Shown one piece after another: positions 168 through 28,116 of a stretch of DNA of 64,000 nucleotides. Numbering within the stretch: the stretch's first letter is position 1; each line of letters starts with the position of its first letter. The notes below the pieces were generated by a model that worked only from the letters and a program-made list of their open reading frames with translations, made no database searches and was not told the DNA's origin. The DNA comes from Saccharibacillus sacchari DSM 19268 (GTDB lineage: Bacteria; Bacillota; Bacilli; Paenibacillales; Paenibacillaceae): positions 1,454,407 through 1,518,406 of the forward strand of contig NZ_KK073875.1 in NCBI RefSeq assembly GCF_000585395.1, written 5' to 3'. Both the position numbers and the translations under genes were made by a program.

Positions 168-3032
168 TCACTCTTGCCCCAATCCATAAGTTATTCGGAT
201 CATGCCTACCACCTGTTCGAATATATCGAGGCTGCCCTGAAGAAAATTGAATTTTGAAACCATTCCGCCGCCCGTGTACCAAACTTGAACGTCCACCTGT
301 TCGTCCGTGCGGGAAAACCGAAGAACAGCATGCCAACTATGCGAAGATTTGATTTTGGTTTTGATGTTTTCTTTGTCGAGAATGTCGACGAGCTCGGTAA
401 AGCTGCGTTGAATCTCCACCGACTCGCCCAGCACTCCCGCATCTTCGCGATCCAAGGCTTCCAAAACGGAACGGAAACTTTCTTCGGATCCGCTCTTCAA
501 TCTCGGCACCTTGATTTCTCCGCGTTTGTTGTAGTCGAAAAATAGCTGTATCTCTTCACCTTTGACTTGGACGGTCGCGATTTCCAAATAAGGCCTCGAC
601 ACGAGAGCGACAACGTTTCCTTCAGCGGGAGAAAGGCGTTCGGATAAGAAGCTTTTAAGTTCGTCGCCTGCTTGTTCCGTACCATTCGAAAGCGTCATGA
701 CTACCTCTTTGTTTTTCGGAACATTCGTCGGTGCTTCGTCGCTGAATTCGGTGTGCAGAAACGGGGAGATCGGCTGCCATTTGATCAGATTGACATGATT
801 TTGACCGATCGCAAGACCCGTGTACAGCCACTTGAAATAATCGGCGTTAGTTTTTCCCCTATTCTCTCCCTGCTCGGTGTCGAAGAATACCGTATCGAAT
901 TTGTACGCCATGGCCTTGTTGACAGTCATGCACCAGGCAAACTTGATTTTCGCGGCATTCAATAAATCGAAATACTGGCTTCCTCTACGGTTCAACTTGG
1001 CTTTGATTCTTTTGCGATAAGCTCTTTCCTGGCGGGTCAGCTTTCGTTTATCGTCTTCGTCGCGATAGAGAATCCGGCCTCCTTCGTCTTCATGATCTTC
1101 TTTTATGACATAACCGCCATCGCGGAACATCTCGGCGTATTCGACACTTTGTTCGAAAGGTTCCCGCGCCATCGCTTCTTTTTCCAATTCGGACAATACG
1201 ATCTGATAAGCCGCTATTTCGCCAGTATTCAGTTCTCCTTTATCCGTGGTCAAGAAATTATCGAAGACCAGCAGTTCAACAACGGTATCGTCCTGCAGCT
1301 TGACCTGTCCGGGGACGAACCTCAATTCGACCGTGGTTCCATTGTTCAAAACGACGGACTTGATTAACGTTTTGCCCGGATCGACGGCAGTTACGGTTCC
1401 GAACATTCCGTTATCGATTCTTCGAGGTTCGTCGACGAAATCGAAAGGATCGTTGTTCGTTCCGGCTTCCGAATAGACATAGGCGCGAATCGAAGAGTTA
1501 AAGATCACGAAATCCTTCACATTGACCGTATCGCCGTTTTGCGCAAGCTTCTGCTTGATCCAGCGGTTCACCCGGTTCGCGTGCTCGTTGGTATAGACGA
1601 TTACCCGGTGGGTATTCGGATTGAGGTAGGTGTTTCGTAGTGCTTGCGTCTGCTCGGATTTATCGCCGATTCGAATGCCGCCTTTACTCGAAAGCATCAA
1701 GTCGTTAAACCGATTCTCTTTCAGATTGACGGCTATTTTCTGGCAGCTCTTGACGATTTCGGACTCGGATTCCGCGTTTGCCAATTCGATCTCTACGACT
1801 TCGGAGAAAAGATTCTTGCTTTCGAGAAGCGATTGCAAGTAAGAAGGGTTCAGTGCATTTTCGACTTTCGATCCGTAAGACAGCTTATTCTTGTCTCCAA
1901 TAAACACGATTTTATCGTTTTTGTTTTTTTCTAGATCCAAGAAGGACAGGAGATCGTCAAGCAAATGACCCGTACCGAACTTCAGAAATTCGGAATCGCT
2001 TTTGGAATTGGAGATCAATTGGCTGTCGTCAATCATGTACAGTGTCTTACACGTTTCGTGCTCACGGTCGTCTTCACTTGTTTTCAAAGGAATCTGCTTT
2101 TGGTAATGTTCATCGATATGCTCGTCTTTGAAATCGAAAATCGTGCTAAACAGCGATTCCACGTCTTCGAGTTCAGGATTATTTTCCAACATGTTTCTTC
2201 GCAACCGCGCGGAATAAGCAAACACTGGAGTATCAGAAAAGCCTTTGTCGAATCCCCTTTCCCTGATCTTCGGGATCAAGCTCGTTTTTCCGCTTTGCGT
2301 CGTTCCCGACAGCACCAAAATCCGGCTTTCCGAGTCTAGGAAAGAAGCGATCTTGTCCATGACTTCCTCGTTGGTCTGCTGAAGCTTTTGCGCGGAAACC
2401 CCAGGCTCGGGAGCCGTGGTCCATGCATGTTTAGGATCATAAGCTTGAGCATTGAAGACGGTCTGTTCGAACACGTTTCTGCCGTTTGCGGACAGATAGT
2501 CGCGGCCTTCGGCAGAAACGTCCAGGAAATCGAACACTTTTTCGACATAATTCCGAGCATCCGCAATACCGAAGTTCAATCTGTGTCTGCCCGGAATTTC
2601 TCCAATGACCTTCATTTCGTTTTGAAAGCAAACCATCGTATAGATGGATCTACGTTCGAAACCAGTAAGCCGGTCCGTTAGTTCTTCTGCCAATCTACTC
2701 CGCTGCTTTTGCAGCTGTTTGAACGGATTGGGAGAGCTACCGCCTCGTACGATCACGCCGCTCGCGAGCTTCCAACTTCCATATTCGAATTGGCTTTCTT
2801 GAGGTAAAATAACTTCCCCTTTATAATTTTTAAAATCGATAATGATGATCCAATGTTCCGTTACTAAAAGCGCATCGATTTGGAGGTCTTCCCGGGTCAC
2901 GCATTCGGGCATGCCGAAAAGCATTCCGTTCCACCCCCGAGCGTCGAAAAGCCGGGACAGTGTGTTCGAAATTTGTCTAAAAAAATCGTTCTCGTACACT
3001 CGGGAAGATTTTCCTTTCCTGATTTCTAACAT
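168..3032 (-). CDS. NERD-domain nuclease / SF1 (DUF2075-like) helicase protein
   Basis: This 954-residue protein is a probable nucleic-acid nuclease-helicase of the defence type. The N-terminus carries a NERD-like (nuclease-related) core: Asp in LQIDALL near residue 53, followed by IIDFKNYKG with Asp66 and Lys68, which fits a D-x(n)-D/E-x-K nuclease. A P-loop GTTQSGKTS lies near residue 238, a Walker B-like MIDDSQL near residue 333, then IVFIGDKNKL, and C-terminal segments resembling the second RecA domain of UvrD/DUF2075 helicases (FAWCMTVNKAMAYKFD). I chose ATG at 3032 because AAGGAG sits nine bases upstream; the frame is open further up to a TTG at 3056, but that has no good binding site. 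It is downstream of the dynamin pair, separated by a hairpin terminator and an AT-rich promoter-like gap, and is followed by a coupled unknown gene. NERD-helicases are known in phage defence (for example Nhi-type proteins), but this family assignment is by motif only. Confidence 0.75.
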   Translation of the reverse strand: MLEIRKGKSSRVYENDFFRQISNTLSRLFDARGWNGMLFGMPECVTREDLQIDALLVTEHWIIIIDFKNYKGEVILPQESQFEYGSWKLASGVIVRGGSSPNPFKQLQKQRSRLAEELTDRLTGFERRSIYTMVCFQNEMKVIGEIPGRHRLNFGIADARNYVEKVFDFLDVSAEGRDYLSANGRNVFEQTVFNAQAYDPKHAWTTAPEPGVSAQKLQQTNEEVMDKIASFLDSESRILVLSGTTQSGKTSLIPKIRERGFDKGFSDTPVFAYSARLRRNMLENNPELEDVESLFSTIFDFKDEHIDEHYQKQIPLKTSEDDREHETCKTLYMIDDSQLISNSKSDSEFLKFGTGHLLDDLLSFLDLEKNKNDKIVFIGDKNKLSYGSKVENALNPSYLQSLLESKNLFSEVVEIELANAESESEIVKSCQKIAVNLKENRFNDLMLSSKGGIRIGDKSEQTQALRNTYLNPNTHRVIVYTNEHANRVNRWIKQKLAQNGDTVNVKDFVIFNSSIRAYVYSEAGTNNDPFDFVDEPRRIDNGMFGTVTAVDPGKTLIKSVVLNNGTTVELRFVPGQVKLQDDTVVELLVFDNFLTTDKGELNTGEIAAYQIVLSELEKEAMAREPFEQSVEYAEMFRDGGYVIKEDHEDEGGRILYRDEDDKRKLTRQERAYRKRIKAKLNRRGSQYFDLLNAAKIKFAWCMTVNKAMAYKFDTVFFDTEQGENRGKTNADYFKWLYTGLAIGQNHVNLIKWQPISPFLHTEFSDEAPTNVPKNKEVVMTLSNGTEQAGDELKSFLSERLSPAEGNVVALVSRPYLEIATVQVKGEEIQLFFDYNKRGEIKVPRLKSGSEESFRSVLEALDREDAGVLGESVEIQRSFTELVDILDKENIKTKIKSSHSWHAVLRFSRTDEQVDVQVWYTGGGMVSKFNFLQGSLDIFEQVVGMIRITYGLGQE

Positions 3033-3308
3033 TTCTTCATTCTCCTTCATAGTCAAGGCTTTTATTTATTTATATTTATTTATATTTAGTTATTAGTTTA
3101 CCATATTTTTATTGAACTTATTCTGACATTCCTGCTTTTTGAAACAAGACAGCTGGCCGAATAAATAAAATTAAGAACGCGAGCAAACTCGCGTTCCCTA
3201 TTCGTCCCCATTACTATCACCAATCCTCAAAATTACGTTTAGTTTTATTAGCTCAATGCGAATATTCAGAGGTAAATTAATTTATGGTCTTTGAGCATTT
3301 CGTCCTTT
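3033..3308 (-). promoter_or_regulatory. Intergenic region with AT-rich leader of the NERD-helicase gene
   Basis: The stretch directly upstream of the helicase start (about 3057-3110) is very AT-rich, with repeated tattta/ttattt units that could supply a -10 region on the minus strand. I could not place a convincing -35/-10 pair. The other half holds the hairpin at 3175-3196. No gene is visible. Confidence 0.35.
3175..3196 (-). terminator. Intrinsic terminator after the dynamin-like GTPase pair
   Basis: A perfect 9-bp stem (gaacgcgag / ctcgcgttc) with a 4-base loop. Read on the minus strand it is followed by a T-rich tail (ttcttaatttta). It lies about 110 bases past the stop of the 577-residue GTPase, so it most likely ends that transcript. 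Confidence 0.6.
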
Positions 3309-5042
3309 CTATTTTACCATTCTTAATTTCAACTTCGCCTTCTGTGACAACACCTCAATGCTAGTTTTCAAAGATGTTTTTCTGTTTTCACTTTCAGTTA
3401 TTTCCCGGCGAGTATTTTCGATCTCTTCCATCTCCGTATCGTAAAAGTCTCTTACTTCCTTTGCGATACCCGACTCATATTCATTTCTCATTTCCTGAGC
3501 AATTGTCCGGTATTCATGCCTAATATCAGCTCGTGCATCCCTAAGCTTTTTGGTCTGATCTTCAACGTCTTTCTCACCTTTGAGAGTCAGGAATACGTCA
3601 AGTGCTACACCGCTTATAGACAATAATGGGCCAAGCTTATTAATCATTTTAGTCAATTTTATAGCGCCCCATGGTTTAAATTTCCCACCAAACATCTTTA
3701 CAAGCTTATAGACTGTATCCTTAGAGATCCTAGCCGCCATTCCGCCCAAATTCCCCAGAGCTTGGGGTCCTTTACTAAGCCATTTCAAAGAATTTTTGGC
3801 ATCGATATCACGCTCATTAATAGAATGATTATGCTCAACCCATTCAGCCTGAATTTGCTTTCTTACAGTCGAGCCTAGTTCAGAGTCATTTAGCTGATCC
3901 AGTTCATCTTGGAGTCTGCTCATTTCACCTTCTATGATTTTGGATAAAGTATTCAACGCTTCTTTTGACTTCAACTCAATCATACGCTCTGAATTTTTTA
4001 TAGCCTTATTGATTTCTTCTGAAGTATGGTGACCGTCTACACTTGCTGCAACCGTCTCTCCTTCCATAAGCACCTCATGCTCAAGAGCGCTAAGTTCCGC
4101 TTTATACTGGTTGGTAAGCCTCACCTCCGACGAACGCAAAATAAGTGATTTACGACGGAGTAACTCCATCATATTTCGGCCTAAAGGAGTTTCTGTCGCA
4201 ACTAGGTTGTACACCTGATCCAAGATGTCGACGAGACGATTTAAAGGTGTGGCCAATTTGGCCGTATATCTGTTCCTTTCCGTGAGTAACTGCAGCCCGT
4301 TCCACAGCTCAGCAAAATTCGACTTGTCTAATAAATACTCTTTCTCATCTTCGTCTTCTTCTGTTTGAGCTGCCAAATACGAATCGGAATCGATGAAGCA
4401 AGTATAGTAATCGTCCGGATGAGTGGGCTCCATCACTTCCAATAAAGATTTTGTTAACGTTTCAGGACTCCCAGATTCGCGCGCCATCTTATTAACGACC
4501 AGAATCATTTGACCTTGACGCTGTAATTCGAATGCTAATTTACGGAAGAAAGCTCCTCCTTGTGGATTAAACAATTCATTAGAAACAACAAATACAATCA
4601 AATCCGATTTCGAAATCTGATTCAGAGTCACTGCATCATGGTCGTCGCGCCCTGCAAAAATTCCGGGTGTATCAATAAGCAACACTTCGTCCCACAAATA
4701 CTGCTCCGCTCGATCCGTAAGAATTTGAGCCCCAATCTTGATTTCTTTATCTTCAGCTTCGTACACCATGATTGTTTTGGGACCACTTTCCGTTCCGACC
4801 ACCTCTTTCCGATTGAACGAAGCGCCTGTTATAGCGGCTATTGTGGTCGATTTCCCTGCATTATATTGGCCAACGAAAGCGATAGTGAGGTGTGTTTGGC
4901 TTTCATACTCTCCCATAAACTGCTCTAACTGTGTTAAAAGCGGTGCAATTTCTACACTTTCTTCACAGTTCTTCAGCAACTCGATTGCACAGTCATAAAG
5001 CTCTTGAACTTCCTCTGCCAAAGTATGAAATTGAAAAGACAA
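3309..5042 (-). CDS. Dynamin-like GTPase, LeoA-like (Eleos-type defence, second gene)
   Basis: A 577-residue dynamin-superfamily GTPase. The G1 loop is GQYNAGKS at residues 58-65, a G2-type Thr lies in the GTESGPKT stretch near residue 85, G3 is DTPG at 124-127, and a degenerate G4 NKMA follows at 184-187. After the GTPase domain come long charged helices typical of a dynamin stalk, and a hydrophobic segment near residues 465-485 that could contact membrane. The start is TTG at 5042 with AAGGGAG eight bases upstream. It follows the 720-residue dynamin-like gene by about 60 bases. Paired dynamin-like GTPases of about 570 and 700 residues match the published Eleos defence system (LeoA and LeoBC), so the likely role is antiphage. 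The family match is by architecture and size, not by an alignment. Confidence 0.7.
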   Translation of the reverse strand: MSFQFHTLAEEVQELYDCAIELLKNCEESVEIAPLLTQLEQFMGEYESQTHLTIAFVGQYNAGKSTTIAAITGASFNRKEVVGTESGPKTIMVYEAEDKEIKIGAQILTDRAEQYLWDEVLLIDTPGIFAGRDDHDAVTLNQISKSDLIVFVVSNELFNPQGGAFFRKLAFELQRQGQMILVVNKMARESGSPETLTKSLLEVMEPTHPDDYYTCFIDSDSYLAAQTEEDEDEKEYLLDKSNFAELWNGLQLLTERNRYTAKLATPLNRLVDILDQVYNLVATETPLGRNMMELLRRKSLILRSSEVRLTNQYKAELSALEHEVLMEGETVAASVDGHHTSEEINKAIKNSERMIELKSKEALNTLSKIIEGEMSRLQDELDQLNDSELGSTVRKQIQAEWVEHNHSINERDIDAKNSLKWLSKGPQALGNLGGMAARISKDTVYKLVKMFGGKFKPWGAIKLTKMINKLGPLLSISGVALDVFLTLKGEKDVEDQTKKLRDARADIRHEYRTIAQEMRNEYESGIAKEVRDFYDTEMEEIENTRREITESENRKTSLKTSIEVLSQKAKLKLRMVK

Positions 5043-5103: not shown

Positions 5104-7266
5104 CTAGGGAATTATGAGCTTAACTCCGGTTATCTCGCTAGCCAATCGAACATTGATCCCCTTTTTACCTATTAATTTCCCTTTCTCCCGTGTAGGGACA
5201 GTGATCGTTGCTTCTTGTTGCCTGCTTTCGACAACTTCGCTAAGCTGAATCATGTCTGGAGTTACATCGGCAGGATAAAGTGCACGACATATCCGTTCCG
5301 TTATATTGGGAGTATCACTAAATAGATGAACTTGTTCCCCGCAGATAATATCTATATTCGTTTTGATGCCTCCAACCATCTGCCACTCATTAGGAACCAT
5401 GATTTTCGTGCCACGACCTTGTTCTCTAGAAAGAGCAATCATTTGCGATTCCGTGCAATTTACCCCTTCGAAGCTAAGCAGCTTTGCAAAAAGCTTTTTG
5501 TTCATATTCATCTTTCTCAATCTTATTTCAGACGAAAATACTTTCAGCTCATTGGCAATTCCAAAGAGCCCATTAATATAAACAGATACCTGACCTAACA
5601 TTTCTTTCTTCCCCTTACGAATAATTTGCCGGTCGAACCACCCCAAATAGGATTCAACAGCCTTTTTATGGGCATCATCAATCATCCTTGTCAACTGCTC
5701 TTTTGCATCATGCTTTGCTTTATTCCACTTCTTTTCTTCCCAATCTCCGAACAACCAACTGAATAGACCCGCCCCTGCACTAACTCCCATTGCAATCCAA
5801 CCTACCGGATTCCAAAAGTTTGCAATTCCAACTTGAGCAAGAATAAAAGCAGTTGCCGATACTCCGCCTACGACAACACCTCCCCATTTAGCAATTCGCC
5901 CGACTTGCCCTTTCTTTAGACCATTCATCTCTACTGGATCAGTCTCTAAAAGCTCTAAGTCAAATTGATATTGCTTCGTAAACTCCGCTAGTTTTTCCTG
6001 AAGTTCACTAACAATGCTCTGAAGTTCCCCCTCCATCTTGGATTTCAGCACATCTTGCTCCTCCTTCAACCTGGAAGTAAGCAAATTATCGATATTAGAT
6101 GAACCCAAATTGGTATCAACAAAATCTGGTATCCATTGTTTGATCCGATCAAAATGCTTCTTGCAAGCGGTATTAATCCGACCTTCACCGTCCGATGAAA
6201 ATCTATCAAAGAAGGCCGATAATTCCTTTCGTTTCTTAACCATAAACTTGGCTTGGGTTCTGATCGAGAGTTGCTCCTCAAACATCATCTTTTCCAAGGT
6301 ATCTGCAAAGTAGATCACACTGTCGTAAAACGTGAGTAATCTCCTTTGTTTGCCTCGCTTTTGAACCTCAGCACTGATTGCATTATGGACTTCATCTAAA
6401 TTACTTAATCTCCACAGATCGGCATTATACGCCTCATACGCCGGTTGAGTGCTTTTAAAACCGGCATCCGCATGAATATTAACGATTTTGACGTAAGGAA
6501 TATTCATATGTTGCTTGACGTATGATCGGATATGCTTTTGATGCTCATCCAGACGTTCATTATCAAAAATTTTATGAGGTATACGAACGAATCGCTTCAG
6601 TTCCGCTTCATTATTAATATTGTATTTTACATTAAGTAAAATCATAAAGGGCTTGTTGATCTCTTGTAGCCTTACCATATGGTCAAATTCTCCAGGCTGA
6701 ATAGAATCGTCCGATGCTAGAAACAAGATAAAATCGGATTGATCGATGATATCATGAGCTTTGGCTGTGTCATCATCTCCTTTAAAAGCTTCAAATCCTG
6801 GAACATCCAGAAGACGAAGTCCGTTCCAATGATACTCCCTCACATCCCGGGTCGTTCTCTGGGCTCCCATGCCTATCGTTCCACCATCCCCACAGGTCAA
6901 AGCTTCACGGATAGTACTTTTACCTGCTTTTGTTCGTCCGAACAAAGCAACAGTGAAATCATTTAAATGCTTCTTTTTCAACTCAATGGAGTGCCTAAGA
7001 TCTTGCATGCTTTCTGAGGTTTGCATCTCTAACTTACGAGCAATTCCGCTCAACACAGGGAAGAAACTAAAGTTTTCCGCGTCCTTTTCCCGAAGTAATG
7101 CATCTGTTTGAACTCGAATATTCCGAGTAAGTTCCTCAACTTGATACTTGACCTCATCGGCAAAAAATAGACTTTCTTTATAAGCCTCTTTAGCAGTTTT
7201 TCTACTAGCCTGCAAGGCCTCTTTAAATCGATCATTGTGTGCATTTTCCAAGAAGATCCACTCCAC
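5104..7266 (-). CDS. Dynamin-like GTPase with C-terminal KH motif, LeoBC-like (Eleos-type, first gene)
   Basis: A 720-residue GTPase of the dynamin/GTP-binding-50S-like class. G1 is GRTKAGKS at residues 110-117, G3 is DVPG at 154-157, and the G4 region reads LNVKYN at 211-216. A strongly hydrophobic double segment at about 455-505 looks like a membrane hairpin. The last 31 residues contain LIGKKGINVRLASEITG, the GxxG loop and following helix of a KH RNA-binding fold, closely resembling the second KH domain of NusA. I know of no standard dynamin with such a tail. The frame starts with GTG at 7266, but AGGTGGAG at 7256-7263 points to TTG at 7251 (residue 6) as the real start. It lies just upstream of the 577-residue GTPase and downstream of BREX. 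Function is inferred to be defence-related. Confidence 0.7.
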   Translation of the reverse strand: MEWIFLENAHNDRFKEALQASRKTAKEAYKESLFFADEVKYQVEELTRNIRVQTDALLREKDAENFSFFPVLSGIARKLEMQTSESMQDLRHSIELKKKHLNDFTVALFGRTKAGKSTIREALTCGDGGTIGMGAQRTTRDVREYHWNGLRLLDVPGFEAFKGDDDTAKAHDIIDQSDFILFLASDDSIQPGEFDHMVRLQEINKPFMILLNVKYNINNEAELKRFVRIPHKIFDNERLDEHQKHIRSYVKQHMNIPYVKIVNIHADAGFKSTQPAYEAYNADLWRLSNLDEVHNAISAEVQKRGKQRRLLTFYDSVIYFADTLEKMMFEEQLSIRTQAKFMVKKRKELSAFFDRFSSDGEGRINTACKKHFDRIKQWIPDFVDTNLGSSNIDNLLTSRLKEEQDVLKSKMEGELQSIVSELQEKLAEFTKQYQFDLELLETDPVEMNGLKKGQVGRIAKWGGVVVGGVSATAFILAQVGIANFWNPVGWIAMGVSAGAGLFSWLFGDWEEKKWNKAKHDAKEQLTRMIDDAHKKAVESYLGWFDRQIIRKGKKEMLGQVSVYINGLFGIANELKVFSSEIRLRKMNMNKKLFAKLLSFEGVNCTESQMIALSREQGRGTKIMVPNEWQMVGGIKTNIDIICGEQVHLFSDTPNITERICRALYPADVTPDMIQLSEVVESRQQEATITVPTREKGKLIGKKGINVRLASEITGVKLIIP

Positions 7267-7682: not shown

Positions 7683-9758
7683 TCATTCCACACCTAACGC
7701 CTTAAACACTGCCTCTTGCGGAGTTGAGTAAAATATCAGACTAAATGCACCAATAAGATCGGACGGTACAGAACCAAGTTCGGGAGCTGACGTTATAGGT
7801 AACAATACTTTTTTCGCGCCGCTGTCTAGACAGACTTGCAAGGTGCTCGCCAGTTCCTCGACTTTGAGTATCGTACCACTGATGCTTATCTCACCAAGTA
7901 CCACAAGGCTCGAAAGCATCGGTTTGTTCAAGGCACCGGAAGCGATCGCAATTACAGATGGCAACGTAAGGAATTTCGTTATTCCGATGCCATTCAGATC
8001 TTGGTAGTTGATAATATAGTTTTTCGTCGTTGTGCTGATAGAACTGCTTATTAGCGAACCGTTTGCTTTGAGGAAATTGAAGGCTGTATTGGCCGCTTCC
8101 TTTGCATCACGGTCGGAACCAAGTCCTGTGCGCTCAAACTTACCATTACCAGGGAGTATTTGCGTTTCGAGGCGATAAACTCCTATCATGCCACTCTTAC
8201 CTTGCGAAACGGTATAGACGTTCCCTGGATTAGTCATCCCTTCCGGGATGATCTTGCCACCACCTTGTTCCGGCACAGCCACATAATGTTCCTCGAATGT
8301 CTCGTTATCGATATACGAAAAGTTAACATCATAGAATTCCATACCACCGATTTTCTTGAGTTGCTCCTTAACACGCCGACGCATTTCGAGGGCAATGGTA
8401 AGGATCTCCCTAATATCCTCCTTATCAAACTCACCATTAGGATAGACAAGTTTGGTCAAGCCAGACACGATTTTACGGACAGCGATAGCGTCCCGTTGGT
8501 TAAGGTTGCTGCCAAAACGGAAATATTTATCGCAAACATCACCGAATGGCTCTTTTCGCATCTCTCGCATAAATTCGGCGAGATAGTCCGTGATCAATCC
8601 ATAATCGTTGGTGAATGATTCTGGGCGATACTTTGGAATCTCCCAACCTGGTACATAGCAATGCATACGGTCAAGAAAGGCCGTGTCATATGACATCGCC
8701 TCCGGAAACGGATCAAACAAATGCGATGTTTTCAGCAGAACATCGACACTCTGATTAATGTTTCCGACAAAAACCATAGAAGCAGTAGCTGCTTTTTCTT
8801 CTTTGCCTCTTGCAAATGAGCCAGAAGCCATATAATCCTTCATGATCTGAACGCCATCTTTGTCCTTAAAAGTGATACCTGCAACTTCGTCAAATGCAAC
8901 GCAGTCCCATAGCCCAACAAGTCCAACCGTCTTACTCGACATATTGTAGAACAGATTCGCGACTGTGGTCTGTCCGCCCGACACGAGGATACTGTTTGGT
9001 GAAATTTCTTTGTATAGGTGCGACTTACCCGTGCTACGAGGACCAAGTTCGCACAGGTTAAAGTTGTTCTCAATCAGCGGTAACATACGAGCCAGTTGCA
9101 ACCACTTCTCACGCTCTGAAAACTTATCCGCTTCCATCCCCGTGGAGCGGAGCAGGACGGTTATCCACTCGTCCTTTGTAAAAGCTCGGCGACCTTCCTT
9201 TATCTCGTCCATATCAATGTGCGGCATCTGAATAGGTGTTATTTTCATGATACGAATAGGTGTAGAATGCTTATCTTCCTCGATATATTCATATTCAAGT
9301 CCAACGATGCACCAGATCCCACCGCATAATAGACGGTCGTACTTAGAGACATAGTCTGAAGATATCGGAATATTACCAACACCAAGATTAGAGAAGTCCG
9401 CTTCATAACGGTCGCGTTTAATATTCAAACTTACTGTTATGCGGTCAATGACCGTATAACTGCCACGTTCGCGCAGTGAAGACAGTACCTTTTGCGCTTC
9501 GTCAGGACGCACGAAGTTATCGGAAAGTATTCGCTTGACGTTCTTCACACCATCTTCGATTATTGTCGGATCATCAGAACCGCAATACTGTCCGAGCAAA
9601 AATTCCAAGACGTAGACGGGAACGTTCGCCCCCTCCTTGATCGCTTTGGTCAGATCTTTACGGACAATCTTGCCATCGAAATGCTTACGCAATTTATGAT
9701 GGATGATAGTGTTCGCATCATCCGTATCCGGTATATATGAGTTTGCCTCTAATTCCAT
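7683..9758 (-). CDS. brxL: BREX system Lon-like ATPase BrxL
   Basis: A 691-residue BrxL, last gene of the type 1 BREX operon. The P-loop GPRSTGKSHL is near residue 236 and a Walker B-like VAFDEVAG near residue 287, forming an AAA+ core. The C-terminal part (from about residue 590) follows the fold of the Lon protease domain, with the conserved VLGEISISGTIL and KKVLLP blocks. The place where Lon has its catalytic lysine (GGLKEK) reads EELAST here, and no GPSAG-type serine loop is seen, so peptidase activity is doubtful. In studied BREX systems BrxL forms DNA-binding rings and is needed for phage restriction. Start ATG at 9758 has AGGAGGG nine bases upstream. It follows pglZ by 12 bases and is followed by a terminator. 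Confidence 0.93.
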   Translation of the reverse strand: MELEANSYIPDTDDANTIIHHKLRKHFDGKIVRKDLTKAIKEGANVPVYVLEFLLGQYCGSDDPTIIEDGVKNVKRILSDNFVRPDEAQKVLSSLRERGSYTVIDRITVSLNIKRDRYEADFSNLGVGNIPISSDYVSKYDRLLCGGIWCIVGLEYEYIEEDKHSTPIRIMKITPIQMPHIDMDEIKEGRRAFTKDEWITVLLRSTGMEADKFSEREKWLQLARMLPLIENNFNLCELGPRSTGKSHLYKEISPNSILVSGGQTTVANLFYNMSSKTVGLVGLWDCVAFDEVAGITFKDKDGVQIMKDYMASGSFARGKEEKAATASMVFVGNINQSVDVLLKTSHLFDPFPEAMSYDTAFLDRMHCYVPGWEIPKYRPESFTNDYGLITDYLAEFMREMRKEPFGDVCDKYFRFGSNLNQRDAIAVRKIVSGLTKLVYPNGEFDKEDIREILTIALEMRRRVKEQLKKIGGMEFYDVNFSYIDNETFEEHYVAVPEQGGGKIIPEGMTNPGNVYTVSQGKSGMIGVYRLETQILPGNGKFERTGLGSDRDAKEAANTAFNFLKANGSLISSSISTTTKNYIINYQDLNGIGITKFLTLPSVIAIASGALNKPMLSSLVVLGEISISGTILKVEELASTLQVCLDSGAKKVLLPITSAPELGSVPSDLIGAFSLIFYSTPQEAVFKALGVE

Positions 9759-9770: not shown

Positions 9771-12362
9771 CTATAGGTCAAATCCAAAATCATCGGCAAA
9801 CGCTATGTCTATGCGGAACTCTGTCTCTTCAGGCACATCCGTGTTATTTGCAATAACAAGGCGGTATATTTTATTACGATCAAATTGCATTTGTTTAAGG
9901 GTGAACCTGACACGGAATACACGCTCAGAAGCATTATCGCTTGTCCTGTCTGCAATCACCGTCTGTGTGTCGCTAACAGAAACACCACTTTCATCGGTAA
10001 AATGCAAACTATAGTTACAAACCTGCACTTTGTCATCAATCGGCTGTTTTTGCAAAAAGTCGAGAGAGAACATCAGGTTCGACACTTTACGACTTTCGCT
10101 GATAAGTGAAAGCCCCGGATTTTGAACTTCAACATACTTCTTAGATCCCGAACGCATACCTTTATAGACAATCACAGGTACGACCATTTCCTGTAGGCTG
10201 ATGCCGCCGTGGACGTAGTTCTCGCCACCACCCTGAACTTTAATGCGGACGATGTCCCGTGGAGTATAGCCTTTCATCGGAATTCCACTGATTTCACGCT
10301 CCGTTTTTACGGGAAGAAGGTAATCGGATGTCGCTTGAGGATCTACCAGGGCGTAACGTCGACCGAGTTCATAAATTTCACCATTAAAAGTCTGACGACT
10401 GATTTTCTGGCTTTCTTCAAGTGGTTTATAGGTATACAGAAAACCATGATCGGCAGTAATCAATACGTTAGTGCCACTTAGGTCATTAACGATTACTTTA
10501 ACGATTGCATTCAGTTCGGAAATTGCCGAATCACAGGCTTCAAATACCTTAGTCTCGGTAGCGTGTTTGTCGCCGAGTGCGTCAATCGTGTTGTGGTAAA
10601 TATATACGATTTCTTTACCTTGCACTAAGGCCCGACGTTCCGTTTGTTTCATCTGCAGTAGGTCATTATAGGTCACGGCTACACTATCGGGGTTAGTTAT
10701 GCTTAGAATTGCACCTCGTCCTACAGTGCTACTCGTTGAGCTACCGTCAACGGATACTTCCATCTTTTCATTTACCGACAACTCTTTTCCCGAGAGCAAG
10801 GCCGCCATACCGAATTTGGTAATGCTCGGGAACACGGATTGTACAGCCTCAAGTGCAGCTACGCCCTTGGTGGTGTGACCGAGCGTTTCAGAAAGTTCAG
10901 CGGCAACTTCAAAACGCAGGGCATCAGAAATCACTATAAATACACGATTGCCTTTGCTCAGATTCGGAGATACGTATCTTCGGTAAAATTCTCGCTGTTT
11001 GTTCACTTCAGAAACATAGCCAAGTGCCTCTAAGTCACTTGCTATAGCGTTCGTCCAATTTAAGGTGAGTTCTTTCAAGAACCATTCACTGTATAAACCC
11101 TCAACCACATCGGTGCACTTCTTTAATGCGTCTTCCAAGAGAACGTGAGGGGACTTCAGCGTATTTCCAAAAAAGTAATGGAAGTGTCTATAATAGCTGT
11201 CCATCTTATAAGCATCAGTCGTATAGAGTTTCCAGACCTTAACGGGCTCGACAAGGTGGAACCCTTCGATATGAGCCAAATAAAATTCTTGCAGCTTAGC
11301 TATCCAATAAAGACTTTCGAAGTAATCTGCAGACAAGTGATACCATGCTGCAGTGCGGCGATTCTCTACTACTTCAAGAATAACGTCTACCTTAATTACA
11401 TGCTGGATGATTTCAGCATAAAAGCGTTTTAAGATGCTTTCGTTGATCGCAGGAAAGGTGTCACTTTTTAAAAGACCCGTTATTTCTATCTTATCAAATC
11501 GGTCGGAAAGGCGAAGTTCATGTTCCACGAAACGACAAATTTCAATTAAGTCCTCATTGTTTTCGCTACGTTGCCACTCATGAACGAGCTGATAGCAGTA
11601 TGCTTTAGAGGAATCAGAAACATACCGCTCCAAGCCGCGCAAGACGGAGGCAGAAATCGTCTGTGACAGGGCAGTTATTAGAATATGTGCAGCGAGATCA
11701 GAAATCGGGCTGTCTTCGGCATTGACATACCCTGTATACTTCTGAATTAACTGCCAGAACGCCTCGAGATTCCCGAACTTCTCGATATTCGCAAGTAGCG
11801 TGTTGTTTTCTTTGTCCAAGCCAGCCGATAGCACGGCAATGATTATATCTTGCGCTGAACCACCAGGGACATTACACAGCACTGCCATGACGTCGATGTG
11901 TAACTGAAGCGGTGTTTGGTATGTCCTGCCGATTTTGCGAAGTTTGGCTTTGCGTTCTTTACTTTCAAGGAATTTGGCGTATAGCTTCATCGTCTTACGC
12001 ATTGCAGAAGACGGCTCGACAAGCAGTTCCTCCATTTGAAGCGACACGAGGTCAGCTCGGAACTCTTCGCTATACAGCTTGATGTCAAGCAGCCAGTCGT
12101 CCTTCCCATCCTTGTTATAAGAGAGTGGGTCATAAACAAGGTAGTCGCCTGTCAAGTCATCCGCCGCTAGTAATTTCTTAACGGCAAAGTTATTCTTACC
12201 GTTAAGTTTTACGAGCGTCACGTCGCTAATAGTCAGTTCATCAATCGCCTCGGCAAACTCGCTGTCCTCATCGTGCCAGAAAACGATACGACGTTTATGA
12301 AATTCCGGCAAGGGAGCAGCGAACCGCTCCACAAGCCTTGATTTTATTGTATCTGACAGCAT
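9771..12362 (-). CDS. pglZ: BREX type 1 alkaline-phosphatase-like protein PglZ
   Basis: An 863-residue PglZ, the alkaline-phosphatase-superfamily protein that is a marker of BREX. The metal-binding motifs are visible as VISDALRFE near residue 473 and ITADHGFLY near residue 632. The N-terminal 400 residues are helical and BREX-specific. The upstream ATG at 12374 overlaps the pglX stop (TAATG), but GGAGG lies five bases before ATG at 12362, which I take as the start. It sits between pglX and brxL in the usual type 1 order. In known systems it associates with PglX; its enzymatic target remains unsettled in general. Confidence 0.95.
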   Translation of the reverse strand: MLSDTIKSRLVERFAAPLPEFHKRRIVFWHDEDSEFAEAIDELTISDVTLVKLNGKNNFAVKKLLAADDLTGDYLVYDPLSYNKDGKDDWLLDIKLYSEEFRADLVSLQMEELLVEPSSAMRKTMKLYAKFLESKERKAKLRKIGRTYQTPLQLHIDVMAVLCNVPGGSAQDIIIAVLSAGLDKENNTLLANIEKFGNLEAFWQLIQKYTGYVNAEDSPISDLAAHILITALSQTISASVLRGLERYVSDSSKAYCYQLVHEWQRSENNEDLIEICRFVEHELRLSDRFDKIEITGLLKSDTFPAINESILKRFYAEIIQHVIKVDVILEVVENRRTAAWYHLSADYFESLYWIAKLQEFYLAHIEGFHLVEPVKVWKLYTTDAYKMDSYYRHFHYFFGNTLKSPHVLLEDALKKCTDVVEGLYSEWFLKELTLNWTNAIASDLEALGYVSEVNKQREFYRRYVSPNLSKGNRVFIVISDALRFEVAAELSETLGHTTKGVAALEAVQSVFPSITKFGMAALLSGKELSVNEKMEVSVDGSSTSSTVGRGAILSITNPDSVAVTYNDLLQMKQTERRALVQGKEIVYIYHNTIDALGDKHATETKVFEACDSAISELNAIVKVIVNDLSGTNVLITADHGFLYTYKPLEESQKISRQTFNGEIYELGRRYALVDPQATSDYLLPVKTEREISGIPMKGYTPRDIVRIKVQGGGENYVHGGISLQEMVVPVIVYKGMRSGSKKYVEVQNPGLSLISESRKVSNLMFSLDFLQKQPIDDKVQVCNYSLHFTDESGVSVSDTQTVIADRTSDNASERVFRVRFTLKQMQFDRNKIYRLVIANNTDVPEETEFRIDIAFADDFGFDL

Positions 12363-12373
12363 AGTATCCTCCA

Positions 12374-15300
12374 TTAAATCTTAGCTAAAATGTCAGTGAA
12401 TAAGGCGTAATTCTTCTTCACACCCTCGTCGAGGTCGATCGTGATTTTTTGGTCGGCGAGGTGGTGAAGCTTTTCTTCAAAAGCAGTAATTTCTAGTAGC
12501 TGCTCTGTCAGTTTGACCTGTCGCTTTAGTAACCGTGCACGTTCCGTGCCTGTCGCTGTGTTCAACGTGCCGGCGGTGTGCGCAAGCTGTGTTCGATACC
12601 TCTCTTGCTGTTCATGAACATAATCCGTGCGCAGTTTGGCAAAAAGGTCACTTGAATAGCGGTGCATATAGATAAGCGCCTTAAAGCCGTTTTTCTTACC
12701 GCTATCGAACATCCAGTAAATTGGACGTTTCTGATAGATTCTCACGTGGTCCTTGTAGAAGTCGTTTAGGAAGTAATTTCGAATGACTTCACGCGACGTC
12801 CCTCTGCCGCCAAGGGCATCGGCGATAAAGCGTAGGTTTTCCTCTAAAGTATCCAATCCGTAAACTGTCTTGACGAACTCTACGAACCGCCCTACGATAT
12901 CATCGTCGAAATATTCATCTTCACAAATAAGGAGGATGTTATCTAGGTCAGCAGGAAACGTCTTATACTTGTCCGCGTCCCAATCGCCACCAGCGTATGC
13001 TAGACCCTCACCATTTAACGAATACCGCCCAAACATACAGCCTATTGCATAACTGATAAGTGAGCGTATTTCACGCCTTAAATCGGCGCGACGTACGGTT
13101 ACGTTCTTGTCCTGGACCTCCGGCGTGAGTTCATCCTGTAGACCATAAATGTCGATGAAGATTCGGTTGAGTTCTTCCTCATTGACTTTAAGCATATTAA
13201 ACCGCTCCGCTGCTTCGCTTTCCCACTTTCTGAACGCGGCCGCAATCGTTTGTTCATCACAAATTAATGGATGTTGCTGGAAATCCCAAGAAGTTTCAAA
13301 TGCGTCCCAATCTGTGCGGGCAAGAGCTATGTTTGAAGATGCAATTGAGTTAACTTCTATTTCTCGCTCATATAATACTGGTACTCGCTCCAAGTCGTAT
13401 ACATTAAGCGCCATCGTCGGGCTAAGTATTTTTCCGAAATAATTAATTAGCACAGAGTTAAACAGTGCCATGAAATAATATAACTGTGATTCTTCAATGA
13501 AAATGCTACGCATATTAACATCAAAAATCGACCCTTTCGGATAGTATCTGAAACTATTTTGCGCAGATGTTAATGCAGAACAAGAAATAGATTGTTCAAA
13601 ATAATAGCGGGTATTTTGAGGTCTAGAACGTAACTTGCCTTTATCGTCATATAAGTTTTTAATTTCATATCCATCATTTTCCCAGTTCACAATATAATCT
13701 CTATTCCCATACCACTTTCGATTATCTCCACCTTTAATAAAGGGATACCATTTACTCGTGCTTACTTCACATAAACCGATATCATTTATATTTATTTCGT
13801 GCCACAAACGGGTAAATCTATCGTTATCGCCAGATTGCAAACCAACTTTTGGATTTGTTATGTCACCAAACTTTTTCTTTCTGAAAAGCTTTATAATGCT
13901 TTTTGGAGCCCAATATGATAAGGGGCAACCTGTTATCTTCTCAAAGTTTTCCTTCTTTGCAATATAACGGTCGTCGCCAGATAGGAATGCTTCCTCCTTT
14001 GCTTTTTGGCTGTTATAGTCCACCAAACGAACATATGTTGCCTCAAAGTCAATACTATTTTGTTTCGAAAGCACAAAGGTGGTCGTCTGTACAACTTCGC
14101 CGCCGATCTCCTCAAACGCTCTTGCACCAAGGTGTGCCATATTCACAATGCCACGATGAATCAGTTTACCGCGCAGTTTCTCGTAGCTCGACAGGAACAT
14201 CCAGGCATGTTGCGTAATCATTGCCTGATAACCTGTGGGTTTCAGCAGTTCGCCGCACTTTTCAATGAACACGGCGAATAGGTCGCTCTTACTGTCTGGG
14301 TAGTTCATCTTCACAAAATTCGACATTTTCACGCTTATACCAGATGCACTCATATACGGCGGGTTGGTCACAACTATGTCGTATTTCTGCGCAAGCAGTC
14401 TACGGAAGTTCCAAGCGTTCAGCTTTGTATCGTAACTTTCGTCAAATAAAGTCAGCTGACCTTCCGGTTCCTCCGGCATCGTTTCAAGCTTGTCCACCCG
14501 AATAAGCGATCCGTATTCCATGCCTTCCATATAGCCTGTCGGCTCGTACACTTGCGGGCACATACTTTGAGTCAGGATACGACGATTATACTGCCTTGCT
14601 TTCATCATTAAAGCGAAGTAAGCAAGCTGATAAGCGCGGCGGTCTATCTCTAAACCGTAGAGGTTCTTTTCCAGTATCAGTCTCGCCGCATCTCGCTCGG
14701 AATAGCCCTCAGATGTATAAATTTGCATCAGCACATCAAAAGCGTACACCAAGATATGACCGCTACCCATACAAGGATCTATTACCTTAATGTCTTCTGG
14801 TGACTTGATGGTATTTTCACTACGCAAGACGCGAAGACGCTCTGCAACTTCCGGCGTTTGCTCCGCCTCGTCAAGGTAGTATTTCCAGTTTTCACGGAGC
14901 GAGCTGTCAGGGCGCGATTCTAGCCATAGCCTACCGAGTGAGTTCTCCACCATATACCGCACGATCCAGTCGGGCGTGAAGAGCTGAGTGGCGGCAGGGA
15001 TGTTCTCTTTTGTGATTTTGACGTTCTTCTTGAGTCCGTCAAAAACCGTTTGTTTTAGCTCAGTGTTGTAATACTGGTATAACCAGCCGATGATCTGCAC
15101 GGCGTCGTGGAAATCTTCTTCTGGTATGTCTTTTACAAGTCGCCCTATAACGCCTTCCGGTTTCAAAATATTATTCGGCAAGAGAATTTCGGTATACGCC
15201 CCCAAACGCTCGAACATCTCCGGTAGGAGCGAGTTTAGAGCGTTGCATTGCGTCAATAAAAGATAGCGATAGAGTTCATCCGTTTTATTGTCGTTCAGTA

Positions 15301-15697
15301 GTTCGGATACTTTAGCCCTGTCTAACCCTTCAAGGTCGAGGTGCAGAACATTTTTTAGAATTTCTGGATTAAAAGCGCCATTCGAATCTGAAAACACACG
15401 GACGTGAGTCGGGAGGAAGTCGTTCACTTCCATATAGCGAAGGGCGACAAATCGGTTGAACCAAGTGTATGCTACTTCTTCGACTGTTTGGTTGAATCCG
15501 TTTGCTTTTATAACCTCAATAAAAGACTGTCGCTGACGCTTCTCGTTAGGCTCCAACACACGCCCTGCGATAACAGTAGCGTGCTCGTCGCCGTAACCTT
15601 TTTCAGTAATGTCATATTGGAAGGCGCGTTGCTTTACCTGTTCAATGAGTTCAGTACGCGCCCAGATCGCGTATTTTTGAATAGCGTTCTTATTCAT
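12374..15697 (-). CDS. pglX: BREX type 1 adenine-specific DNA methyltransferase PglX
   Basis: An 1107-residue m6A DNA methyltransferase. The SAM-binding motif I DPCMGSGHILVYAF is near residue 307 and the catalytic motif IV NPPY near residue 444. The enzyme marks host DNA at a specific non-palindromic site so that BREX spares it. The segment coding for about residues 590-750, where the target recognition domain is expected, is clearly richer in A+T than the rest of the gene, which suggests exchange of the specificity region. The gene is intact, with no frameshift and no long homopolymer tract that would suggest phase variation. Start ATG at 15697 has AGGGTGAG upstream; brxC ends 14 bases before it. 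Confidence 0.96.
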   Translation of the reverse strand: MNKNAIQKYAIWARTELIEQVKQRAFQYDITEKGYGDEHATVIAGRVLEPNEKRQRQSFIEVIKANGFNQTVEEVAYTWFNRFVALRYMEVNDFLPTHVRVFSDSNGAFNPEILKNVLHLDLEGLDRAKVSELLNDNKTDELYRYLLLTQCNALNSLLPEMFERLGAYTEILLPNNILKPEGVIGRLVKDIPEEDFHDAVQIIGWLYQYYNTELKQTVFDGLKKNVKITKENIPAATQLFTPDWIVRYMVENSLGRLWLESRPDSSLRENWKYYLDEAEQTPEVAERLRVLRSENTIKSPEDIKVIDPCMGSGHILVYAFDVLMQIYTSEGYSERDAARLILEKNLYGLEIDRRAYQLAYFALMMKARQYNRRILTQSMCPQVYEPTGYMEGMEYGSLIRVDKLETMPEEPEGQLTLFDESYDTKLNAWNFRRLLAQKYDIVVTNPPYMSASGISVKMSNFVKMNYPDSKSDLFAVFIEKCGELLKPTGYQAMITQHAWMFLSSYEKLRGKLIHRGIVNMAHLGARAFEEIGGEVVQTTTFVLSKQNSIDFEATYVRLVDYNSQKAKEEAFLSGDDRYIAKKENFEKITGCPLSYWAPKSIIKLFRKKKFGDITNPKVGLQSGDNDRFTRLWHEININDIGLCEVSTSKWYPFIKGGDNRKWYGNRDYIVNWENDGYEIKNLYDDKGKLRSRPQNTRYYFEQSISCSALTSAQNSFRYYPKGSIFDVNMRSIFIEESQLYYFMALFNSVLINYFGKILSPTMALNVYDLERVPVLYEREIEVNSIASSNIALARTDWDAFETSWDFQQHPLICDEQTIAAAFRKWESEAAERFNMLKVNEEELNRIFIDIYGLQDELTPEVQDKNVTVRRADLRREIRSLISYAIGCMFGRYSLNGEGLAYAGGDWDADKYKTFPADLDNILLICEDEYFDDDIVGRFVEFVKTVYGLDTLEENLRFIADALGGRGTSREVIRNYFLNDFYKDHVRIYQKRPIYWMFDSGKKNGFKALIYMHRYSSDLFAKLRTDYVHEQQERYRTQLAHTAGTLNTATGTERARLLKRQVKLTEQLLEITAFEEKLHHLADQKITIDLDEGVKKNYALFTDILAKI

Positions 15698-15711: not shown

Positions 15712-18700
15712 TTAGTTAATTTGAATACCGTCGTTTGATTCCAGCGTGTCGTACAGCTTTTTGCGAATACCTTCAAGATAACCATCTACATCCTCGCGAG
15801 ATGCCAGCCGCTTGACGGGGAATACGTCATATCGGCGTACTTGTGCAATTTTCTGTGGTTTCGGAGGTGTGGTATTGCCCGGTATAGTCGGCTGATCGTA
15901 GAGCATAGATTCAATCCGTTTGCACACTTGGTCTTTATAATTCAGTACTTGTGTAATCATCGCATCAAGCATGGTCAAGTTTGTGGCGTCGTCAACTTTC
16001 CGTTTGTACTCGACAAAGCGGTCATCTGCCTTCTTCACTTCATCATAGGTTTGGTTACCGACATCGGCTAGCGTGTGAACGTCACCCATACACTGCGTGA
16101 TAATACCATGTACTTCCTCTTTCTTCTGCTCGAGCAATATGCCGTAGGCGTTTCTTACGCCCTGCATCAGATCGGAGAGATCTTTAATCTTCCCATAGGG
16201 CTTTGGCATCGCAAGAATTGACGAAATCAAGCTTATCTTTTCAATCGCATCTGTATTCGTAGCAAAATAGTCCCGCTCATTTTGCAGGTCATTCTGCAAC
16301 TGCCGTGCTGCATCAAAGATAGCCTTTTGAGATTTGAAGAAAGTTTCAACGTCCGCCATATCGTCGGAACAGTCGAGCAGATCATCTTGTTTAGCAATCA
16401 GGCGGGTGAGCAGTGCAACATCGTCGCGTTTTTGCGATAGGATGTCACTCATCAGATCGCGAGCGGCTGTTACCACTTCTTTTTGCGGATAGCGGTCACG
16501 GTTATATTCGTCAAGGAGTTTCTCATAATGCGCAAGTCTCGATTCGAATGTCTCTTTCACAAAGGTGATAAGCCCATCCTCGTCTTCAGGAATTCCCATT
16601 TGATCGAGCCAGTTGCGCAGGAATGTAATACTTTTACGCATCAGTTCTTCGCTCGGTGCAATTCGGCGGCTTACGCTAGCCTTGTCTATCTCGGATTTTT
16701 TGCGAAGGTAGCCGACAAGATTTCTGTCGTCCTTGCCAACGATTGCACCGCCGTAGCGGATTTCAATCTTTTGCGAAACAACGAGCCTTGCGATGAGTGC
16801 GGCAATATCTACCTCACGCCAACCATAAGGGATCGCCTGATAACGTCTTTGCACATCGCCCATCGAGACTGGGACTCGGCTCATATAACGTTCTTCCAAC
16901 CACTGACTCACTTCGTTTAGAGCAAATTCATTATTCGATCCACTGCCGGCAAAGCTCATTTGTTCCGGCTCGCCGTTGAGGATAGCCAGAATATCCGCAT
17001 CGCTGTCTCTAAATTTGTTTACGAGGTTTAACTTAGAGTAGACGCTTTCGATCAGTTGTTTCAAGGCTTCATCAAGCTTCCCTCTTGCCTCGCCATATTT
17101 CACCTCGACTTTTTCACCGTAGATATAAACCACACTATCAACGATAGACTTTTCAATCTGCTTTTTAGCATTCTCTTCAAGTATCCGCGCTTGCACCTGG
17201 CGCTTGCGAATAATGTCTTGAATGCTCTCAGAAAGTTGCGATACATTTTTTTGTTTAATATATTTCTTGATCTTCGCAGCGGTTTCCAATTCTTCGAAGT
17301 ATTGTACTGCGCTTGAAAGCAGCACAATTGCCTCATTGTTAACTTGCGAGTCCATAATCAGCTTTGTTTCAGGAGCACTGTAGTAATCACTTGCCACAGT
17401 GACAAAACGCAAGCGCACTCCACCAGTTGCAGCTCCAACGAGAGTTTCATCGATATACTGGTCGTAAGCGAAGTCATATTTATTGTACTTATATTTCTTA
17501 GACGGATAGATTTCGCTGAATAGGGTTTGTCCAATACTTTGGACGATAGTTGTACTATCCACAGTTGTGTTTCGAATATCGATCGCAACGTCTTGTTCTT
17601 CATCCGTGAGGAACGAGTAATGATCTCCGCTACGAGCGACATAGTTTTGTGTTTCCAAGCGCTCTAACGAAGCCGCGATTTCAAGACGAAGATTTATCTT
17701 GTCTGCCCGGATATCATCGATCATCAAAATAGCAATATTGTCGATATTCGCTTTGATGTCATCGATATAACGGACGAGGTAAAGGAGTTTCAAGACACTT
17801 GCATCAAGCTGCTCCAAACCATCGCCTTTGTCGGCCGCGGTCTGGCAGCGATCAATCACTCGGCGTATTGGACTTTCCAGGAAAGTATGCACCGTATCGT
17901 AGAATTGCGAGAAAGGCACGAGGGCATTTTCGTCTTTCTCTTGTACTTTTTGTGCAGCCTCTTGGAAACCGGAAAGCATAGAACGTTCGCCGCCCGAGAG
18001 GTGCTTCCCAGAGTTACCATGTTTGCGTATCTCGGCAAGTACTTTTTGAATAATAATGAACTGATAAGGCACAAACGGGTATGTAGCAGAAAACTCGGCT
18101 CCATCGGCGTAACCCTTGATGTCCAATACCGCATTATTAAATGTGAATAGATTTTTCAGTACCGCACGCTCTTTATCGTAAACAAGCTGCAGAAGTCGGT
18201 CGGCGTCTTCCTTCTTTTTGAGAATACGCTTTTTGATAACTTCATCTACCGATGCTGATGACAGAGACAAACGGGTATTAAACCGACCTTGGATCTTAGA
18301 AAAGTCGTTTCCGCTGATTTTCACAACAGAGTCAATCGCCTCTTGGCTCGTGACCATCACCCAAACTTTACCCTGACATTTGCTTCCAACTTCTTCGACA
18401 ATAGATTGAAGGTTTATCATCAGGTCGCTATCATCGCCGATGTACTGGCCGACTTCGTCTACGCAGAACAGCAAACGGAAGTCTTTGCCTTTTTCATCGA
18501 CGTACGACTTGATTTCTTCAACTAACTGCTTGATGCTCATATCGGCGTTTTCCTCGCCATTGAACCAATTGCGGGCAGCGATTTCACTCATGCCAAGAAC
18601 ACTTTGCAGCACAGATACAATATTATCCTCAAAGAAGGCATAAGTGGCACGAGCTTCTAACCATGACGCACCATTAACCTCCTCGAAAGCCTGTCTGAAC

Positions 18701-25619: not shown

Positions 25620-26246
25620 GTGATACTTGTGGAAGACCAAAACAAGAGCGTTGGCAAATTCAATGAAACTGTTCGGAAAAGTCGAGAAAGCATCGGTCAA
25701 GCTGTAACCCTGACAATTGGAGATGGCGAAGTACAGGTAGAAGGATTGACTCCTAAACCTTTTCTTCCACCTCAAGCATTAGTTTTGATTAGACAAGACA
25801 GCAAGTTTTACATCAAGGGTGCTTTCGATGGTAAAGAGTATGGCACCTCACAAATCGACGCTTTTGACCACAATAAAATTACGGTTAGCATTGATCTCAA
25901 AGATAAAGAAAATATTCAAATTTATTATAGAACGGGTGAAACTACAGCTAAACTTCAATCAAAAAAGATTAAAGATCCTAATGATTTCTTCCTTGCTTTT
26001 TGGGAAAACGAGTCAAGGATTTATCTGGTTTCTTCTACTTTTGATCCGGAAACAAAAAAACTAAGAAAAGATAATACCTCTGCTGTTGATCAAAAAACGA
26101 AGCAATTTATCAAAAGTTTCGTAAGGATCTCACTTTCTAATTCTCAAAGCCATGATTTTGAAGAGAACCATTCAGTTACCGTGAACTACCTTGGTATTAA
26201 CGAGAAGTCAGAAGAAGAAAGTTATGATGAACTTTATGAACGATAA
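25620..26246 (+). CDS. Hypothetical protein upstream of the primase-helicase
   Basis: A 208-residue protein with a mostly beta-strand N-terminal part (VTLTIGDGEVQVEGL, then PQALVLIRQDSKFYIKG) and a Lys/Ser-rich C-terminus. I do not recognise a family. The frame begins with GTG at 25620; a second GTG at 25629 is equally possible, and the ribosome binding site (agaaaagag) is weak. Its stop overlaps the start of the primase-helicase gene, so translation of the two is coupled. By position, a single-strand DNA-binding or replication accessory role is conceivable, without motif support. Confidence 0.65.
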   Translation: MILVEDQNKSVGKFNETVRKSRESIGQAVTLTIGDGEVQVEGLTPKPFLPPQALVLIRQDSKFYIKGAFDGKEYGTSQIDAFDHNKITVSIDLKDKENIQIYYRTGETTAKLQSKKIKDPNDFFLAFWENESRIYLVSSTFDPETKKLRKDNTSAVDQKTKQFIKSFVRISLSNSQSHDFEENHSVTVNYLGINEKSEEESYDELYER

Positions 26247-27837: not shown

Positions 27838-28033
27838 ACCAAAAAAAATGAATACTTTAACTGTAACCGAAGCCTGGGAACATATTTTCGAACGAAAAAT
27901 TTCTAAAGATACGCTTTACAATGAGGTTCGAGCAGGCCGAATCCCCCATACTCGTATTGGAAGCAAAATTTTATTTCGTCGGGATACCCTAAACGCCTGG
28001 TTTGAAGAACAGGAACAGAAAAATTTAAGTTAA
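27818..28033 (+). CDS. xis: Excisionase-type HTH protein (Xis)
   Basis: A 71-residue winged-HTH excisionase: LTVTEAWEHIFERKISKD, then EVRAGRIPHTRIGSKILF and RRDTLNAWF, the standard pattern of Tn916/phage Xis proteins. It overlaps the end of the primase-helicase gene and lies 83 bases before the integrase on the same strand, with a hairpin between. It should bias the integrase toward excision and may also regulate transcription. ATG at 27818 is preceded by gaggaggagatgg. Confidence 0.88.
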   Translation: MKIPISKPKKMNTLTVTEAWEHIFERKISKDTLYNEVRAGRIPHTRIGSKILFRRDTLNAWFEEQEQKNLS

Positions 28034-28048
28034 CACTCAAAAGTTTAT

Positions 28049-28074: not shown

Positions 28075-28116
28075 ATTTAGTCATGCCTATTTTAAGGAAT
28101 GGAGGCTGTATAAATT

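Follow-up and report, generated by a model that had tools for sequence, protein, structure and literature searches.

How do the dynamin-like proteins of Eleos defence systems recognize infection? Eleos, or its component LeoBC, is named in PMC10999152, PMC10482375 and PMC12915292, which in their accessible parts report presence only. Here we consider a LeoBC-like gene on the minus strand, at positions 5104-7266 of a 64,000-nucleotide stretch (the window) of Saccharibacillus sacchari DSM 19268 (NZ_KK073875.1, positions 1,454,407 to 1,518,406), whose genome is a single contig of 6.08 Mb. The product is almost certainly an Eleos-type LeoBC dynamin bearing a NusA-type KH1-KH2 tail, the LeoBC member of a two-dynamin system of Eleos type, and the NusA-type tandem appears to have been gained by fusion in an ancestor of its lineage. 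The homology, predicted fold, conservation and LeoA partner reported here were all computed in this work.

How does this protein compare with what has been described? It shares with the Eleos LeoBC of PADLOC (PDLC03841) the body, the gene order LeoBC-LeoA and the setting in a defence island. The LeoBC model, of 601 positions, aligns to residues 23-615, and its match stops before the KH2 part in all nine proteins scanned (this one and eight relatives), so that the KH tandem goes unannotated by it. Mitofusin 1 and BDLP have a similar body, but the mitofusin matches stop near residue 600 and the KH tandem is extra. Era also couples a GTPase to a C-terminal KH domain, but it has one KH domain, neither a dynamin stalk nor a paddle, and a role in ribosome assembly, as the accessible part of PMC10582724 describes it. 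The KH1-KH2 pair of NusA (TIGR01953; PDB 1hh2, 2atw) is alike over about 110 residues and in the predicted fold of a relative's tail; unlike NusA, the present protein has a KH1 without the first helix and the GxxG loop, and carries the pair on a dynamin. The extended di-KH domain of KHNYN, an antiviral protein, likewise has a KH1 lacking and a KH2 keeping GxxG (PMC11997328, accessible part), but KHNYN is a human nuclease with type I KH domains and has no known relation to dynamins.

The open reading frame (ORF) runs for 720 amino acids from a GTG start; frame 1 of the plus strand over 5104-7266 has many stops and is not open there. Its parts are listed below, with AF2 standing for AlphaFold2 and pLDDT for its predicted local distance difference test score.

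5104-7266, minus strand: LeoBC-like dynamin-like GTPase with a NusA-type tandem KH tail, 720 aa (PADLOC LeoBC, E 9.7e-110; AF2 mean pLDDT 82.1)
6346-6960, minus strand: GTPase domain, residues ~103-307 (Pfam MMR_HSR1 1.1e-10, Dynamin_N 3.2e-4; EF-Tu and Era fold matches over ~103-307)
5740-5943, minus strand: hydrophobic hairpin or putative membrane paddle, residues 442-509 (sequence; AF2 pLDDT < 50; role suggested by dynamins)
5317-5442, minus strand: KH1 remnant, residues 609-650 (AF2 secondary structure, hhalign to NusA; conserved residues R614, G617 and E644)
5107-5304, minus strand: KH2, residues 655-720, with both helices (NusA TIGR01953 match at 643-717; AF2 helices 692-699 and 701-713)
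5158-5169, minus strand: GKKG (GxxG) loop of KH2, residues 700-703 (sequence)

In the AF2 model and the fold search, the GTPase and a helical trunk with the paddle, the latter predicted at low confidence, form a mitofusin/BDLP-like dynamin layout, and GTPase and dynamin bodies are among the 50 matches listed for the full-length fold. The preliminary description of this DNA had placed the frame, the G1 motif GRTKAGKS at residues 110-117, the G3 motif DVPG at 154-157, a hydrophobic stretch at 455-505 and GKKG at 700-703. All of these positions are as it gave them, the strand being minus, and its view of an Eleos-type dynamin-like GTPase in a defence island is supported by the PADLOC LeoBC and LeoA, Pfam and fold matches.

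The kinship of the tail with NusA goes beyond chance resemblance and was seen in several kinds of comparison. The NCBIfam NusA model TIGR01953 matches residues 643-717 of the whole protein at E 2.1e-8, and the last 108 residues alone at 1e-9; the match is confined to model positions 264-333 of 340 and scores far under the full-NusA cut-off of 253.4 bits, as expected for a partial domain set, and the N-terminal polymerase-binding and S1 domains of NusA find no match in this protein. Pfam KH_1 gives the tail alone 23.0 bits, over the gathering score of 21.5, and the whole protein 19.4, under it. With the single tail as query, the best match among PDB sequences is the KH protein IGF2BP2 (9.9e-5), followed by NusA (0.0017). 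Built from 13 of the 16 tails with a GxxG loop in KH2 (this one and 15 others have it), a profile finds solved NusA at 3.4e-17 across its positions 13-120, which span KH1 and KH2. Alignment of the GxxG tails with NusA (7 of the 12 NusA loci found in the genome scan) by hhalign gives a probability of 98.2%, E 4.6e-14, over 110 columns. Taken one by one, 12 of 13 GxxG tails match TIGR01953 at E <= 0.01. LeoA proteins served as a control: for 16 of them, that of this window and 15 neighbours of GxxG-type LeoBC, the final 126 residues yielded a NusA match in 0 of 16.

The homologous unit is thus about 110 residues long and consists of a KH1 remnant, strand-strand-helix-strand in the AF2 model and about 11 residues shorter than NusA KH1 by hhalign, followed by KH2. 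The preliminary description had seen a NusA-type KH end in the last 31 residues; the kind of fold stands, with profile, hhalign and AF2 support, and the length has to be extended to both domains. Its proposal that the C-terminus alone be compared with profile libraries is answered by the 1e-9 and 23.0-bit matches above. A complete and separate NusA gene lies in the same genome at C1:68727-69737. A genome of the same genus has a second, more divergent NusA-type gene (G339:C80:8117-9136, E 6e-95).

How widespread is the tail? Among 392 genomes of the order, three have a match at 1e-10: this one, G163, whose copy is 82% identical, tail included, with LeoA adjoining, and G362, where a 21% match is confined to the body. 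No relative turned up among genome contigs when this protein alone was the query, and 251 did with an alignment (A1). The best 80 of the 251 were kept, chosen by likeness to this protein, and therefore the tail counts are not natural frequencies. The resulting 89 LeoBC sequences comprise this one, the 80 contig loci, three plasmid loci (of seven plasmid records), three from viral contigs, G163 and G419; L004 and L008, remote or fragmentary, stand outside. A tail of at least 100 residues is present in 71 of the 89, a shorter one in three and none in 12; three are fragments. Since L052 is cut by a contig end and L050 ends early, the rows without a tail include ten clear cases. The sharing of the tail by LeoBC homologues, raised in the preliminary description, is thereby confirmed, and the tail is no odd fusion of one genome. 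A relative from Rossellomorea vietnamensis NBRC 101237, reportedly the strain from which the tested Eleos came, carries this tail too, its loop reading GKHG. LeoA adjoins LeoBC in 82 of the 88 relatives. Actinobacterial Eleos is absent from the relatives in this likeness-chosen sample; the accessible part of PMC10482375 reports Eleos of Actinobacteria as enriched in Rhodococcus.

Some relatives have unusual arrangements. At L037:6949-9474 and L118:7206-9698, half tails of 69 and 65 residues are accompanied by a TerB domain at the N-terminus (Pfam 1.1e-9 and 7.1e-7), a hint that sensor modules may be exchanged. LeoBC is divided between two frames in L046 and L073, the second of which precedes LeoA. 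A helicase-like protein of 1601 aa comes after the Eleos pair in G163 (L038:10139-14944; PADLOC TmtA 1.2e-36 and MkoA 2.7e-34).

The 71 full tails differ in the KH2 loop, which is GxxG in 16, GKDH or GKDR in six and degenerate in 49. The six are L035, L067, L072, L074, L079 and L121, from a Klebsiella plasmid, a viral contig and other Pseudomonadota. In the 16 GxxG tails the loop is mostly basic and N always comes next; this group was chosen by its loop, by eye and then by pattern, so that the invariance of its glycines carries no weight by itself. Are the degenerate tails also NusA-like? Of the 49 degenerate full-length tails, 48 were compared with NCBIfam, and none matches a KH or NusA model at 0.1; in a PDB sequence search NusA is absent at E <= 10, and hhalign of degenerate tails with NusA gives a probability of 0.4%. 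Any single Pfam KH family is matched at 0.01 by at most 10 of the 71 tails. Degenerate and GxxG tails align with each other at 97.8%, E 8e-13, and the predicted fold of one relative's degenerate tail matches NusA KH1-KH2 in a fold search. A NusA origin of the degenerate tails is suggested by this homology to the GxxG tails together with the one predicted fold.

Over the 71 aligned tails, and across phyla, R614 is kept in 70, G617 in 70 and E644 in 68. In the hhalign alignment R614 and G617 correspond to the Arg and Gly of the first NusA KH1 strand, and E644 to the Glu that opens the last strand; all three counterparts are invariant in the seven NusA rows. By comparison with G163, the ratio of nonsynonymous to synonymous substitution rates (dN/dS) is 0.06 for the GTPase, 0.17 for the stalk and paddle and 0.18 for the tail (0.17 for KH1). 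On a tree of 86 LeoBC bodies, with the tail left out, the four tail states take four changes, the minimum possible being three. The degenerate rows form one group (support 44) and the GKDH rows one clade (100); the tailless rows take two changes and the GxxG rows three. GxxG rows are spread over several lineages, and the tailless cyanobacteria join the one to which this protein belongs (98); a GxxG in KH2 is therefore most simply read as ancestral, with its losses derived. With long branches and weak deep forks, this order of losses is a suggestion.

What might the tail do? We favour, with a probability of about 0.48, a NusA-derived regulatory head, in which KH2 binds RNA here and gates the dynamin. 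The tail probably begins at the point at which the body helix comes back to the neck, beside the GTPase. KH2, with its basic GKKG loop, would bind single-stranded RNA of host or phage; the contact would gate GTP hydrolysis or assembly with LeoA, and the LeoBC-LeoA pair would then act on the membrane. There is a precedent in Era, where ribosomal RNA acts on the GTPase through the KH domain (PMC10582724, accessible part). In the large GxxG-less group the same scaffold would need a different ligand, in all likelihood a protein. Taken separately, that KH2 binds RNA in this subgroup seems to us an even bet, and so does the idea that the tail gates the GTPase.

A number of observations weigh against RNA gating. 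The tail has a net charge of zero, hence is not strongly basic. KH1 has lost its GxxG here, and KH2 has lost it in 55 of the 71 full tails, so that canonical RNA sensing cannot be the tail's mode across the whole family; the preliminary description had made its reading depend on a KH fold and a conserved GKKG loop, and the fold is indeed predicted, with the loop kept in one set of relatives and lost in most of those examined. KH2 is also the least conserved piece in the comparison with G163 (69% identity, dN/dS 0.20). The tail is not universal, because the ten clear tailless LeoBC, nine cyanobacterial and one verrucomicrobial, do without it, as does L005, the best PADLOC LeoBC match in its scan, whose frame shows no KH tail (L005 is outside the 89, and blastp at 1e-5 does not match it to this protein). 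Finally, for the antiviral KHNYN, the accessible part of PMC11997328 reports that RNA binding was not seen and that a GDDG mutant is still active, and GxxG alone is therefore not sufficient for RNA binding.

These observations bear on three other explanations. The chief rival, which we hold to be possible if somewhat doubtful, is that the KH tandem docks to proteins and does not bind RNA, and so recognizes a phage or host protein or keeps the dynamin inactive. The persistence of the R614/G617/E644 core, when GxxG is gone from 66 of 71 KH1 parts as well as from most KH2 parts, speaks for docking, in particular in those relatives that lack GxxG; so do the NusA fold still predicted for a degenerate tail and, as far as the accessible part of PMC11997328 goes, the KHNYN precedent. 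Docking alone would not need the mostly basic loop and the following N that 16 tails keep. Docking to LeoA specifically is unlikely, and LeoA was set aside as a docking partner, as all ten clearly tailless LeoBC keep an adjoining LeoA.

Could the tail act instead as a NusA look-alike? It would bring the dynamin to RNA polymerase during transcription, or compete with the NusA of the host, and in this way recognize phage antitermination complexes. The nearest profile and fold matches are to bacterial NusA KH1-KH2 and not to other KH proteins, and titles of structure entries place NusA in the λ N and Q complexes. Without counterparts to the polymerase-binding and S1 domains, and with the single-sequence search ranking the IGF2BP2 KH above NusA, we regard this as improbable. 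Much the same improbability attaches to the tail being a ligand-free, fold-stabilizing remnant of an old fusion that is slowly decaying. One would expect from decay the successive loss that is seen, of GxxG from KH1, then of GxxG from KH2 in one large group and of the entire tail in a group of cyanobacteria, as well as the low constraint on KH2; purifying selection on the tail and the core residues kept in 68-70 of 71 tails across phyla argue the other way.

A wider and rather unlikely conjecture is that Eleos began as an RNA-gated dynamin, whose NusA-type KH tandem licensed membrane remodelling on reading single-stranded or nascent RNA nearby; this lineage would have kept the reader and others would have swapped the ligand or dropped the tail. 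Were this so, transcription-derived RNA sensing would have been joined to dynamin-type membrane immunity. Should the tail gate the GTPase, the KH-GTPase coupling known from Era would have arisen again in an immune dynamin. An overlooked NusA-type domain on LeoBC is a definite candidate for the part of Eleos that senses or switches. The open-access literature searched, with most subscription papers outside it, showed no description of a bacterial dynamin with a KH or NusA tail, in agreement with the preliminary description, which knew of no standard account of the combination. The terms 'KH domain', 'NusA' and 'RNA' are absent from the accessible text of PMC4159319, and 'GTPase', 'KH domain' and 'NusA' from that of PMC12839542, on bacteriophage exclusion (BREX).

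The locus is an Eleos-type pair adjoining a BREX-1 set, as follows from the LeoBC and LeoA, BREX gene, GTPase and dynamin domain matches. From high coordinates the minus-strand order is brxC, pglX, pglZ, brxL, the LeoBC gene, the LeoA gene and a NERD protein:

15712-19233, minus strand: brxC (PADLOC)
12374-15697, minus strand: pglX (PADLOC)
9771-12374, minus strand: pglZ, BREX-1 (NCBIfam TIGR02687, 3.6e-184)
7683-9758, minus strand: brxL, of the BREX-1 set upstream (NCBIfam TIGR02653, E 0)
3309-5042, minus strand: LeoA-like dynamin-like GTPase, the partner gene, directly downstream (PADLOC LeoA, E 8.2e-119; NCBIfam DLP_LeoA_gen)
3173-3198, minus strand: weak terminator-like hairpin 3' of LeoA, 11 pairs and then a T run (three such sites in the region, 3.5 expected in shuffles)
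168-3056, minus strand: NERD nuclease/helicase protein, PADLOC candidate type PDC-M16A (PADLOC 6.2e-73; Pfam NERD 1.1e-10, TBP-TOTE 1.9e-6)

The labels brxA and brxB are presumptive and follow the gene order. Promoter and terminator scans of the region gave site counts not above those of shuffled sequence. The tailed LeoBC was also considered as a BREX component and rejected, as homologues of this window's BREX genes are near only 4 of the 88 relatives, within flanks of at most 8 kb per relative and often less. In L072, L074, L079 and L116 the LeoBC-LeoA pair is near BREX genes, and in L072 and L074 it lies between PglX and PglZ.

Beyond the BREX genes, on the plus strand at 25620-29364, a big ORF, to judge by reading only, resembles a phage-type primase/helicase and is followed by what looks like a tyrosine-type integrase; the 548-aa ORF has no PADLOC match. 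The segment may be an integrative element that separates the BREX/Eleos block from a further pair of genes, at 29677-31080 and 31094-31774 on the minus strand. That pair resembles a cyclic oligonucleotide-based antiphage signalling system (CBASS), with an oligonucleotide cyclase (PADLOC 3.5e-158) and an effector with two transmembrane segments (1.4e-66), and the window therefore holds several defence systems.
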